DNA of 64,000 nt from Gelidibacter gilvus (GTDB taxonomy: Bacteria > Bacteroidota > Bacteroidia > Flavobacteriales > Flavobacteriaceae), in contig NZ_SDDZ01000001.1 in NCBI RefSeq assembly GCF_004115975.1, positions 1 to 64,000 of the forward strand, given 5' to 3'. This document shows positions 11,610 to 52,483 of this stretch, in pieces. The notes beneath the pieces are model-generated. The model saw nothing but the letters and a program-made list of their open reading frames with translations, ran no database searches and was not told the DNA's origin. Each line of letters starts with the position of its first letter. Within the stretch, counting starts at the first letter, position 1. The translations under genes and the position numbers were made by a program.

Positions 11610-11617
11610 AATCTAAT

Positions 11618-11785
11618 CCCCTCCTAACCTCCCCAAAGGGGAGGAATAGCTTGGTTAATAATTGAAATGATTTTCGTCAGTATTAGAAGAGTCCAACCCC
11701 TTCAGAGCAATTAATCGTATTTTTTTTTCCCATAAACGCAGTATTCACATCAGTTAGAATTCCCCCTTCGGGGGCCTAGAGGGAT
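11618..11785. repeat. REPIN-like inverted pair of CCTAACC-hairpin repeats (no ORF)
   Basis: The left end (11618-11646) reads CCCCTCCTAACC then a hairpin CTCCCC-AAA-GGGGAG. The right end (11759-11785), read on the minus strand, is CCCTCTAGGCCCCCGAAGGG. Both ends read inward as CCTA-type foot, C-rich arm, GAAG/AAAG loop, G-rich arm, so they form a terminal inverted pair around about 110 bases without an ORF. The element fills nearly the whole gap between the DUF58 gene and the clpP stop codon. The same repeat bounds the insertion in leuS. Confidence 0.7.
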
Positions 11786-11786
11786 C

Positions 11787-12939: not shown

Positions 12940-13032
12940 TAGGGCGCATAAACCGGGCTTTTCGTTATATCTTTTTATGCGGTGGCTTCGCTCAGCTCAG
13001 TCACCGCATAAAAAGGATGCCACTGCAATCCC
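12940..13032 (-). repeat. Structured intergenic repeat with long variable hairpin (copy 1)
   Basis: Read on the minus strand: GGGATTGCAGTGGCATCC, CTTTTTATGCGGTG, a 17-nt loop, CACCGCATAAAAAG, then ATATAACGAAAAGCCCGG. The hairpin has a perfect 14-bp stem (12971-12984 with 13002-13015). The same conserved flanks, around a different middle, occur on the plus strand at 27569-27700. No protein is encoded. It could be a transcribed structured RNA tail or a mobile palindromic repeat. Confidence 0.6.
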
Positions 13033-13168
13033 TTGCGCAAACTCGGGCTATTTAAATGGAATTGCTTCTAGAATCGAAACTATTTTCAACGATTATAGTA
13101 TTGAACTACACACAAAACATATAACCGTCGTCTTCTTTTCATGAGATGCCTACAGTCGCAAACATTAA

Positions 13169-18579: not shown

Positions 18580-18626
18580 CAGACTTATTAATAATAGAGG
18601 TCGCGAACCTCACTAATTAATTATTT

Positions 18627-49072: not shown

Positions 49073-52000
49073 CTATCCTACAATATTTACAATCTTTCCA
49101 GGAACCACAATCACTTTTTTAGGCGTGCGTCCTTCCAGTTGTGCCATGGTTTTCTCATGTGCCATCACTGTTTTTTCAATATCTTCCTTAGTCATGTCCA
49201 TTGGCAACTCCAACGTGAATTTCACTTTACCATTGAAGGAAATTGGATACTTCTTACTGCTTTCCACTAAATATTTTGCATCAAATTTTGGAAATGCTGC
49301 AGTAGAAATAGATTCATTATGTCCTAACTGACTCCATAATTCTTCTGAAATATGTGGCGCATAAGGTGATAATAAAATCAACAGAGGTTCCAAAATTTCT
49401 TTACTGGTACATTTTAGAGCCGTCAATTCATTCACGGCAATCATAAATGTGGAGACTGAGGTATTGAATGAGAAACTTTCAATGTCTTCCTCAACTTTTT
49501 TAATGGTTCTATGGAGTGTTTTTAATTCCTCCCCTAACCCCTCCGAAGGAGGGGAACTGTTGACGTAAAAACTGCCATTCTCCCCTTGGTGGTATAATTT
49601 CCAAAGTTTTTTGAGAAACCCATTAACCCCTGAAATTCCTGCGGTGTTCCATGGTTTTGCTTGTTCTAATGGCCCTAGGAACATTTCGTACATGCGCAAA
49701 CTATCGGCACCATATTGCTCACAAATGGCATCTGGATTGACGACGTTGTATTTGGATTTGGACATTTTTTCGACTTCGCGAGAAACCTTGAATGACCCAT
49801 CTTCTTCTGTTATAAATTCAGCATCTTTAAACTCAGGTCGCCAATTAATAAAGGCTTCGATATCCAATTCATCTGAAGAATTTACAAAAGAAACATCTGC
49901 ATGAATACCAGGTCGAATAGTAATTTTATATTCCTCAATATTTTCAAGAATTTGATTATATGCTTTTAAAGCTATTTCATCATTTGGTTTAAACTTAAGA
50001 AGTAATTCTTTCAAATATTCTTGGTCAGTTGCTTTTCCATTCGAAAGTAAAATATTAGTATTAATATCATAACCTCCGGCATGATATGCAGTGACACCAA
50101 GCTTACCTTTTTCAAAAATAAAACCATCCACTCTTCTTACAAAAGCACTCGTCCCCAAAATCATTCCTTGGTTGATCAACTTTTTAAAGGGCTCTTCAAT
50201 ACTTACAAAACCTCGGTCCTTCATAAATTTCACCCAGAAACGAGAATAAAGTAAATGACCTGTGGCATGCTCGCTGCCACCAATGTATAAATCGACGTCT
50301 TTCCAATAGGCTAACGCTTCTTCACTGGCAAATGCCTCATCATTCTGAGCGTCCATATATCTGAAGAAATACCAAGAACTTCCCGCCCAACCTGGCATGG
50401 TGTTCAATTCGAGAGGGAAAACCGTTTTATGATCAATCAGTTGATTGCTGACCACTTCACTTTGTTCTACGTCCCAAGCCCAAATATCCGCACGCCCTAA
50501 AGGTGGTTCTCCGGTTTCAGTTGGTAAATATTTTTCTACTTCTGGCAAACGGATTGGCAAATGTTTTTTATCAATCATTTGTGGCATGCCGTTCACGTAA
50601 TACACAGGAAATGGTTCACCCCAATAGCGCTGACGGGAGAAAACCGCATCACGCAATCGGTAATTGATTTTCCCTTCACCCTGATTTAATTTTTCAAGTT
50701 CTGAAATGACTTTTTTAGTAGCTTCTTTAAGTGATAAACCGTTAAGAAAATCAGAATTTGCAATCACCACATTGTCCTTAGACACATAAGCTTCTTCAGA
50801 AATATCAATCCCTTCAAAAATATTCGGAATTGGAATATTGAAGTGTTTAGCAAAATCGTAATCCCGTTGGTCGCCACAAGGTACGGACATTACCGCCCCT
50901 GTTCCGTAACCTGCCAATACATAATCGCCAATCCAGATTGGAATGGGTTCTTTTGAGAAGGGATGTTCGGCATAAGCACCTGTAAAAGCACCAGTGATGG
51001 TTTTGACGTCCGACATACGGTCGCGTTCGCTTCGTTTGGCAGTCGACTTTATATAAGCTTCAACTTCATTTTTTTGTTCTGGAGTGGTAATCTGCGAAAC
51101 TAAATCGTGTTCTGGAGCAAGTGTCATAAAAGAAACTCCAAAAATAGTATCGGGACGCGTCGTAAATACCTGAATCCCCCTAACCCCCGAAGTGGGAACA
51201 GAGTAGGCTTTTAAATGACTTTCTATCGTTTTTAATACTGAATCGCAGTCTTCAAAAATTTCGTCATTACGGAATCTTATAACTTTGAAACCTTTATCAT
51301 TTAATCGTTGTGTTCTTAAGGCATCTTCTTCTATTTGTGAATCATGAATTGCACCATCAATCTCCACAACCAATTTTTTAGACAGACAGACAAAATCAAC
51401 AATAAAATCATCTATGAGATGCTGTTGCCTAAATTTGTCACCAGTACCTTTAGATCTTAAATGCGACCAAAGTATTTTCTCTGCTTCTGTGGGATTATTT
51501 CTCATCGCTTTCGCCTTTTCCAGCAAAAGATGGGCGTTATTTCCACCAGTCATATAACCAGGCTTGGCTATCACGTCAGATTTCTCTTCCCCTTCGGGGA
51601 AGGATAGGATGGGGAATGTTACTGTAGCTCCAATAGACTTCCCAATCCAGTTGCGCTGGCTTTCTTTTAACGATTCCGTCCAATCAATATCATTTAAACC
51701 TTGCAGCAAGCGTTCGGCATAGGCAGAAATTCGCATACTCCATTGGGTCATTTTCTTTCTGACCACAGAATGGCCACCACGTTCTGAAACGCCGTTGACA
51801 ATTTCGTCATTTGCCAAAACAGTTCCTAAAGCAGGACACCAATTGACTTCAGTTTCTGCCAAATAGGTCAGTCTGTATTTTAAAAGAATTTCTTGTTGTT
51901 TTTCTGACGAGAAAGTGTTCCAGTCTGATGCTGAAAATTTTTCGATATGATCATCACAAACCGCATTAATATTGGCATTTCCTTCAGAAGCAAAAATCGC

Positions 52001-52483
52001 AATCAATGTATCGATCGGTTCTGCCTTATTGGATGTGTTATTATACCAAGATTCAAACAATTGGATAAAAATCCATTGCGTCCATTTATAATACGACGGA
52101 TCTGAAGTTCGTACTTCCCTGCTCCAATCGAATGAAAATCCGATTTGATCCAACTGTCTACGATAAGTTTTGATGTTTTCTTCAGTAGTTACAGCAGGAT
52201 GCTGTCCAGTTTGAATCGCATATTGCTCTGCTGGCAATCCAAAACTGTCGTAACCTTGAGGATGCAATACATTAAAACCTTTGTGACGTTTGTAACGGGA
52301 ATAAATATCGCTGGCAATATACCCTAACGGATGTCCCACATGAAGCCCCGCACCACTTGGGTAAGGAAACATGTCCAAAACATAATATTTTGGCTTCTCA
52401 CTGTTATTTGTGGCTTTGAAGGTTTGGTTTTTCGCCCAAAAGTCTTGCCATTTTTTTTCTATCTCGTTAAAATTGTAGTACAT
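49073..52483 (-). CDS. leuS: Leucyl-tRNA synthetase carrying an in-frame DUF559 nuclease insertion
   Basis: 1136 residues in one open frame. Synthetase motifs are intact: [10 protein letters not shown] (HIGH), TTRPDTIFG and [15 protein letters not shown] of the CP1 editing domain, and [13 protein letters not shown] (KMSKS). Residues about 291-436 are an extra block that replaces a beta-hairpin loop between GATVTF and IQVFTTRPD at the entrance of CP1. It holds a DUF559/Vsr-like nuclease domain (about 311-424). A second extra segment [11 protein letters not shown] (about 976-986) is translated from a palindromic repeat. A third long loop (about 790-850, [18 protein letters not shown]) also exceeds what I expect. 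Without the first block the length is 990. A TAAATTTG box (52523-52530) may be the promoter. Confidence 0.95.
49528..49556 (-). repeat. CCTAACC-hairpin repeat translated within leuS
   Basis: The plus strand reads CCTCCCCTAACC then hairpin CCTCC-GAA-GGAGG and GGAA, the same family as the leuS insertion ends. In the leuS frame it encodes [11 protein letters not shown], in a variable region before the helical anticodon-binding domain ([14 protein letters not shown]). It is a single copy with no inverted partner nearby. Confidence 0.75.
51176..51613 (-). mobile_element. Repeat-bounded cassette encoding a DUF559 nuclease domain, inserted in leuS
   Basis: A 438-bp block. Both ends, read inward, show the CCTA(A/T)CC foot and a C-rich/GAAG/G-rich hairpin: the high end gives CCCCATCCTATCC + TTCCCCGAAGGGGAA, the low end CCCCCTAACC + CCCGAAGTGGGAA. 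Between them lies [39 protein letters not shown], then the core [19 protein letters not shown] and H380. Candidate PD-(D/E)XK residues are Asp363, Glu374 and Asp376. An internal ATG at 51553 (Met311) could start a separate product. The whole block, repeats included, is open in the leuS frame. Confidence 0.75.

Follow-up and report, generated by a model that had tools for sequence, protein, structure and literature searches.

How does a nuclease come to lie inside leucyl-tRNA synthetase (LeuRS), an enzyme encoded by an essential gene? For a homing nuclease to be tolerated in an essential gene, self-splicing, in the form of introns or inteins, is usually considered necessary. The question is raised by leuS of Gelidibacter gilvus (Bacteroidota, Flavobacteriaceae; assembly GCF_004115975.1), found in positions 1 to 64,000 of contig NZ_SDDZ01000001.1, the 64,000-nucleotide stretch of DNA analyzed here and referred to as the window. 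An earlier reading of its letters (the original prediction) held that residues 291-436 of this LeuRS are not synthetase but a block with a complete-looking DUF559 nuclease domain, possibly active. The block was likened to an intein or a Rickettsia palindromic element (RPE), a selfish nuclease translated within an essential enzyme and perhaps capable of homing; a nucleic-acid-cutting side activity for the synthetase was offered as another option. The evidence assembled below indicates that the block is probably a homing-like mobile element of ~440 bp, comprising one DUF559 (Vsr/EDxHD-type) nuclease gene and persisting unspliced as a translated domain of essential enzymes. Terminal repeats and relatives in other host genes are additions to the earlier reading. 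Coordinates are collected in Table 1; genomes (G) and loci (L) are cited by number where they must be told apart.

Table 1. Positions of leuS, its in-frame element and related repeats in the window.
Feature	Positions	Strand	Remarks
leuS (leucyl-tRNA synthetase, LeuRS)	49073-52483	minus	single open reading frame (ORF), 1136 codons, contains the element
In-frame element, aa 291-436	51176-51613	minus	spans left to right terminal repeat; 438 bp
Left terminal repeat with internal hairpin, TCCCCATCCTATCCTTCCCCGAAGGGGAAGAG, 10-residue translation	51584-51615	minus	match to right end imperfect
Short conserved N-terminal segment, common to many nested LeuRS copies	51530-51562	minus	
DUF559 (PF04480) nuclease domain, aa 322-424	51212-51520	minus	Pfam, AlphaFold, Foldseek
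Glu335	51479-51481	minus	
Putative catalytic Asp363 (51395-51397), Glu374 (51362-51364), Asp376 (51356-51358), His380 (51344-51346)	51344-51397	minus	
Right terminal repeat, GTTCCCACTTCGGGGGTTAGGGGGA, translated VPTSGVRG	51175-51199	minus	DNA-conserved in other LeuRS copies
Solitary palindrome resembling repetitive extragenic palindromic (REP) sequences, in frame in the same leuS, aa 976-986, 11 residues	49526-49558	minus	sequence similar to element ends, no nuclease
ORF-less intergenic pair of similar inverted C/G-rich hairpin ends, ~170 bp	11617-11786		by eye

The domain assignment of the original prediction is clear by hidden Markov model search. The Pfam family DUF559 matches LeuRS with an E value of 4e-33 and 114 bits, against a gathering cut-off of 20.6, and LeuRS Pfam domains flank the match on both sides, with the editing domain resuming at aa 435. 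The synthetase motifs HVGHP (aa 48-52) and KMSKS (aa 906-910) are both present in the filled enzyme, so that their preservation is likewise upheld. The outer limits of the block fall within 1-2 bases of the outer ends of two C/G-rich hairpins, the left one CCCATCCTATCCTTCCCCGAAGGGGAAGAG and the right one GTTCCCACTTCGGGGGTTAGGGGG. An AlphaFold model of the insert alone has a mean pLDDT of 75.9, with ten-residue blocks over insert residues 31-140 averaging 71-92. The model of the whole LeuRS, built from a 20-row alignment, is poor (mean pLDDT 62.7) and shows only a contiguous insert domain amid low-confidence linkers, between strands 282-292 and 436-441.

The nuclease has kept the residues expected of it. 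Asp363, Glu374, Asp376 and His380, already read as intact from the sequence, do not vary among 20 aligned LeuRS that bear an insert. These four, along with Glu335, Trp339, Asp387, Arg390 and Arg403, are likewise invariant in a set of 66 DUF559 domains, made up of the window's domain and 65 selected from 77 usable loci; from homology, we infer a catalytic role for the four. When the domain profile was compared with the PDB, the chains below E 0.01 were 3hrl (E 2e-29) and 3r3p, named "mobile intron protein" (E 1.6e-7). Foldseek ranked the same two chains at the top with the AlphaFold insert as query, 3r3p being the catalytic domain of the homing endonuclease I-Bth0305I (E 7e-5); Vsr ranks lower (E 0.08). 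Sequence profile and predicted fold therefore both point to a catalytic domain homologous to that of I-Bth0305I. Pfam scans of the inserts returned only DUF559-type matches and no Y1 (HUH) transposase. Locus L095 was skipped in one analysis step. The nuclease is under purifying selection: the ratio of nonsynonymous to synonymous change (dN/dS, omega) is 0.13 between the inserts of the window's genome and of a second carrier in the genus (G000 and G001; dN 0.108, dS 0.839) and 0.08-0.22 in five other pairs, a seventh pair being not computable. In the five LeuRS pairs that yielded both values the dS of the insert is lower than that of the 5' part of the host gene, a set too small and too saturated to interpret.

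Empty sites exist among close relatives. Within the genus the block is found in two of nine genomes (G000 and G001), and in the other seven (G002-G008) a short loop connects the flanking parts of LeuRS; we take it to be the loop at the entrance to the CP1 editing domain. The wider set of 107 LeuRS loci consisted of 90 from a 149-genome sample (30 + 60), 10 further known carriers and 7 genus genomes; a LeuRS segment was found in all 149 genomes of that sample, 13 of which are known carriers of a LeuRS insert. Fourteen of the 107 loops hold DUF559 with an intact motif, two hold a decayed copy (G010 and G120) and 91 hold none, proportions that do not give a prevalence because the known carriers and three long frames were chosen deliberately. 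The commonest empty loop has 16 residues. Relative to it the filled leuS is short of ~8 loop codons, and the insertion is thus a replacement; presence and absence among relatives were found as anticipated, but not the exact, clean addition. A C-rich hairpin occurs in 13 of the 16 loops that hold DUF559 and in none of the 91 that do not. The same loop is occupied by DUF559 in 44 distinct LeuRS sequences. Named isolates that are carriers include Gillisia mitskevichiae DSM 19839 (L114) and Cellulophaga baltica DSM 24729 (L116).

The decayed copies (L253 in G010, L254 in G120) lie in this same loop with the frame open, and lack both the hairpin ends and the Glu-x-Asp-Gly motif. They are identical at 73 of 141 positions, and their hosts form a 99-supported group with the intact carrier G138. 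Because these copies have decayed, LeuRS does not need the nuclease motif, although a dead domain can still be kept; the suggestion of a useful cutting side activity for the synthetase is unsupported. Empty loops in DUF559-free species (L227, L231, L242, L249, L266, L271, L277 and others) often carry other palindromic-looking repeats, with translations of the VIASEAKQSH, QNSEFRI and SEMLKQVQHD types, and this LeuRS loop seems to be a general landing place, or hotspot, for in-frame repeats.

Inverted terminal repeats bound the elements at the level of the family. Each left flank was aligned to the reverse complement of the right flank, and over 122 elements the mean score of such end pairs is 15.2, compared with 9.55 for permuted pairs (maximum 10.7 of 5000 permutations). 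Pairing of an element's own ends is significant by permutation within LeuRS copies and within solo copies. A score of at least 15 is reached by 51 of 130 elements (144 less 12 duplicates and 2 with short flanks) and by 1 of 650 control intervals placed at random in the same loci; 13 of the 44 LeuRS copies reach it. The best repeat pairs are 35-53 bp long and the 57 elements with clear repeats span 413-657 bp, 10 of 30 loci having gone unparsed in this measurement. The two ends of the window's element have the hairpin core in common and no long repeat. In LeuRS copies, codons for identical residues at the ends are themselves identical in 695 of 704 cases on the left (98.7%; the 16 copies sharing the window's left end) and in 253 of 259 on the right (97.7%; 10 copies). 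Elsewhere in the same ORFs the range is 43-66% for five blocks of the nuclease and 37-57% for six of LeuRS, a difference which argues that the LeuRS ends are constrained, or homogenized, as DNA. Codon identity for RecG is 70-74% in ends, 56-59% in bodies and 31-55% in hosts, and for MetH1 67-91%, 47-55% and 43-59%, respectively.

Relatives of the domain lie in frame in many other proteins. PF04480 matched 143 of 299 genomes in a family sample and 109 of 198 in a phylum sample; among the matches listed, best scores first, 47 of 150 and 34 of 150, respectively, lie in ORFs of at least 200 aa, the other 103 of the family sample being in shorter ones. The 47 family-sample loci in long frames were examined. 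Hosts of DUF559 were identified by BLAST for LeuRS and IleRS, by Pfam for ten examples and from flanking motifs for the rest. Pfam-checked hosts are MetH, RecG, IleRS, HemD, acetyl-CoA synthetase, RecJ, a UvrD-like helicase, CoA-transferase, methylmalonyl-CoA mutase and MazG, which makes at least ten host families besides LeuRS. One MetH (L066:3886-7362) holds two DUF559 stretches in a single open frame. A fusion of DUF559 to the N-terminus of a HemD-like protein through a REP-like linker occurs in nine rows of one group (L069, L079, L081, L085, L089, L090, L091, L093, L096; Pfam-checked for L079 only). A scan of GTDB contigs used an alignment of nested copies, and 67 of the best 80 of 573 relatives lie in long frames (L183, one of these, was later counted as solitary), a share inflated because the query was built from nested copies. 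Of these best 80, 77 belong to Bacteroidota, and the others to Spirochaetaceae (L162), Marithrix (L165) and Paceibacterota (L179, in LeuRS). The window's own genome also has solitary DUF559 genes, L001 (C24:519321) and L003 (C14:411), which by eye stand amid other hairpin repeats of CCTTCCC..GGGAAGG types. L004 (C24:74447), a 165-aa ORF ~10 kb past the window end, is Vsr-like by eye with a weak DUF559 match.

The history of the element may differ in part from that of its hosts. On a LeuRS tree of 105 rows, presence of the insert needs 12 changes (shuffled mean 13.4); on one of 107 rows, intact copies need 13 (shuffled mean 13.4) and any DUF559 copy also 13 (shuffled 15.2, and as low in 19 of 500). 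Intact carriers are therefore scattered about as at random, and DUF559 copies as a whole cluster slightly, with G010, G120 and G138, one starred host group, contributing. G000 is placed among empty species, apart from G001, and yet the two inserts are mutually nearest; one old gain with losses and two gains are both possible. Host and insert distances (L129 and L179 skipped; 39 of the remaining 42 used, host >800 aa) can diverge widely. The hosts of L070 and L132 differ by 13.5% and their inserts by 44.7%, those of L082 and L116 by 15.0% and 47.4%, and those of L076 and L077 by 17.7% and 10.3%. The first two pairs indicate that the same loop can carry quite dissimilar elements in closely related hosts. 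Junctions differ slightly from one element type to another, which, with the copies that join ends of two types, suggests several insertions into this loop and some exchange.

In a tree of 128 distinct domains, labels of host site need 27 changes against a shuffled mean of 78.7, a strong clustering. This tree is a quick one of 120 columns with many forks unresolved; 12 of 17 solitary loci (motif filter) and five duplicate rows were left out, and L126, L130, L161, L172 and a few more were labeled manually. RecG copies form one group (14 rows, SH-aLRT 94), as do HemD copies, and the 44 LeuRS copies need nine changes, at least three of them forced by starred branches. Copies from MetH sites 1 and 2 are mixed in one 97-supported group (L139, L146, L155, L163), which is counted as support for a jump between sites. 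L181 and L149, considered as a recent pair of solitary and nested copies, were rejected at ~0.33 changes per site.

Empty sites, patchiness, an intact motif, homology to a homing endonuclease and ends constrained as DNA together favor the selfish, translated and possibly homing nuclease of the original prediction. The element would consist of a nuclease gene between inverted, hairpin-bearing terminal repeats, its reading frame open through both ends. Having entered the CP1-entrance loop of leuS in frame, it would contribute, on translation, one further domain on flexible tethers to a LeuRS that is otherwise intact. The DUF559 nuclease would cut or nick its target, and repair would copy the hairpin-bounded element into the break. 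Copying into uninterrupted leuS alleles, that is, homing, could give rise to the scattered occupancy, and rarer jumps into other genes could account for the other hosts. Only in-frame insertions in tolerant surface loops would survive, essential genes removing the others, and the ends translate into Pro/Ser/Gly-rich linkers. Within a host gene the element would be expressed with that gene and could not be lost by frameshift, later decaying in place or being lost. The unspliced nuclease is apparently tolerated because the ends encode flexible linkers and the fold is tolerated.

Several observations weigh against this interpretation. The window's own end pair is weak, with a score of 10.5 (11.0 in G001) where 2.5% of control intervals reach 12, and a terminal-repeat role for this copy therefore leans on related elements. 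More widely, 79 of 130 elements score below 15 and end pairing is not significant within RecG, MetH1 or HemD copies, so that mobility may be lacking in many copies. A search for target-site duplications in 44 elements found none (mean match at the junctions 2.45, against 2.50 after permutation). With up to 3 mismatches allowed, G000 has a single occurrence of the end sequence, which speaks against recent copying within this genome and against a family of genomic repeats identical to the ends in leuS; two further places matched a looser pattern. Inspection by eye of the 20 bases preceding the left end shows 7 differences between G000 and G001, and thus no co-conversion of the flank is seen. Some copies combine ends of two types. 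Distances of insert and host are correlated (Mantel r 0.60), so the history is partly vertical. The insert rejects the host tree in AU (approximately unbiased) tests, with a difference in log-likelihood of 397, but LeuRS control segments of the same width reject it too (101, 113 and 138), for which reason only the excess over controls and the plain distance pairs were used. The omega values could also mean a benefit to the host, and the two decayed copies have been retained in frame. The supposed near-identical solitary and nested pair L143/L147 was set aside as proof of recent movement, as L143 reaches a contig end and may be a cut fusion. Cutting, copying, homing, persistence of the domain in the mature enzyme and full LeuRS activity are inferred.

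The most serious rival is that of a real mobile element whose ends depend for their movement on a different enzyme, such as a REP-associated HUH transposase (RAYT, Pfam Y1_Tnp), with DUF559 as passenger or accessory. The element ends do resemble REP palindromes, which the consulted part of one source gives as known RAYT substrates (PMC3733652), and the ORF-less end pair and the lone palindrome within leuS show that similar sequences exist apart from the nuclease. Among 24 genomes that have DUF559 elements, 19 of which are LeuRS carriers, 18 contain a Y1_Tnp match, sometimes weak; the other six, some of them draft assemblies, are without one, and RAYT as a necessary mover is accordingly not supported. 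Since, in addition, the hairpin is found in the leuS loop only together with DUF559, the ends are inverted around DUF559 and matched within elements, and the domain is homologous to a homing endonuclease, movement by another enzyme is considered unlikely, at perhaps one chance in several. Domestication, in which LeuRS and other hosts recruited the DUF559 lobe for an activity or a structure and passed it on vertically with frequent loss, would fit the purifying selection, the host-specific clades such as that of RecG, the correlated distances and the in-frame retention of both decayed copies in one supported host group with an intact one. It fits poorly with the near-random scatter of intact carriers, the same nuclease in functionally unrelated proteins and the tolerance of decay, and constraint on the ends as DNA is unexpected for a function at the protein level; it is judged improbable.

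Removal of the block after transcription or translation, by an intein, an intron or ribosomal bypass, would leave the mature LeuRS without it. The essentiality of leuS makes this attractive, and the inverted ends could join the flanks in RNA, as the minimum-energy fold of the element pairs its left end with its right. That fold is not unusual (z -1.43), however; Pfam detects no Hint/intein splicing domain in LeuRS up to E 0.1, Rfam at gathering thresholds gives no intron in the window and no match inside the element, and selection on the reading frame fits translation. Removal is thus very improbable. That the block is no more than a fusion in frame by chance, or an artefact of assembly, might be suspected from the preponderance of short frames among the DUF559 matches listed, but with the same loop filled in 44 distinct LeuRS, and recurrence in other host families and in both isolate genomes and metagenome-assembled genomes, it is scarcely credible.

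Two further repeats in the window resemble the element ends. The same or a close peptide to that of the palindrome at aa 976-986 is present in the LeuRS of G004 and G005 and not in that of G002, G003 or G008. The intergenic pair adjoins a gene looking like clpP, and is possibly a non-autonomous derivative of such an element. Elsewhere in the window Rfam identifies a Flavo-1 RNA (12947-13053) and an S16-Flavobacteria leader (18587-18621).

More broadly, the homing-like element in leuS may be one of a class of mobile elements, common across Bacteroidota, that has yet to be described. Its members would have a Vsr/EDxHD-type nuclease as sole gene, hairpin inverted ends and no target duplication; they would reside as unspliced translated domains, homing between alleles and more rarely jumping between genes (LeuRS, IleRS, RecG, MetH, RecJ, HemD and others). 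This larger claim is advanced tentatively, at slightly under even chances. The nuclease persists without sign of splicing in at least 11 kinds of host protein (LeuRS and the ten Pfam examples), which amounts to a natural repeated experiment in domain gain by proteins. It also offers a lead to the function of DUF559, an uncharacterized family, accounts for odd multi-domain proteins seen in Bacteroidota, and provides a catalogue of essential-enzyme loops into which a 100-residue domain can be accommodated.

Among the literature matches listed (titles and the beginnings of abstracts, with subscription papers and preprints outside the scope) there is no description of a host-nested DUF559 or of DUF559 elements with inverted repeats. 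The DUF559 domain is shared with Caulobacter VsrA, a solitary protein on which, according to the part of the report consulted, the SOS response of a methyltransferase mutant depends (PMC12907096); VsrA is a free-standing chromosomal gene proposed for mismatch repair, and not a nested domain. Like classical insertion sequences, the elements have terminal inverted repeats at the family level, although the window's own pair is weak, and unlike them they show no target-site duplication in the 44 elements analyzed. REPs inside genes have been reported (PMC3733652, in part). The arrangement here resembles REPtrons (REP and RAYT) in having short C/G-rich hairpins inverted around a nuclease gene, but the nuclease is PD-(D/E)XK-like DUF559 in place of HUH Y1, and a quarter of the element genomes show no Y1_Tnp match. 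A precedent for the in-frame fusion of a homing endonuclease to a host protein is the fungal mitochondrial rps3, a ribosomal protein gene fused to a LAGLIDADG enzyme (PMC7902536, in part); there the nuclease superfamily is another, the setting is organellar and within a group I intron, and a single host gene is involved.

Parallels are also found with homing systems and with RPEs. The homing endonuclease I-Bth0305I has a catalytic domain homologous to that of the element and, like it, occupies a single place in a conserved gene patchily. It is described, in the portion of the source consulted, as a long multi-domain structure with extra DNA-binding regions (PMC3943268); the element described here ends in inverted repeats, and neither an intron nor an extra domain was found in it. 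Like it, inteins that contain homing endonucleases are translated in frame inside conserved essential genes, with a probable cycle of gain, decay and loss. They differ in their Hint/splicing domain, and the DUF559 domain, having none, is expected to remain part of the protein. Rickettsia palindromic elements, to our knowledge, encode no enzyme. As far as the consulted part of one source describes them, they are palindromic DNA of ~150 bp lying in frame in unrelated genes and translated (PMC10969869). The element shares their palindromic ends and their translation in frame within unrelated genes; it is distinguished by its greater length (438 bp here, several hundred in the 57 relatives with clear repeats) and by the nuclease that it encodes.

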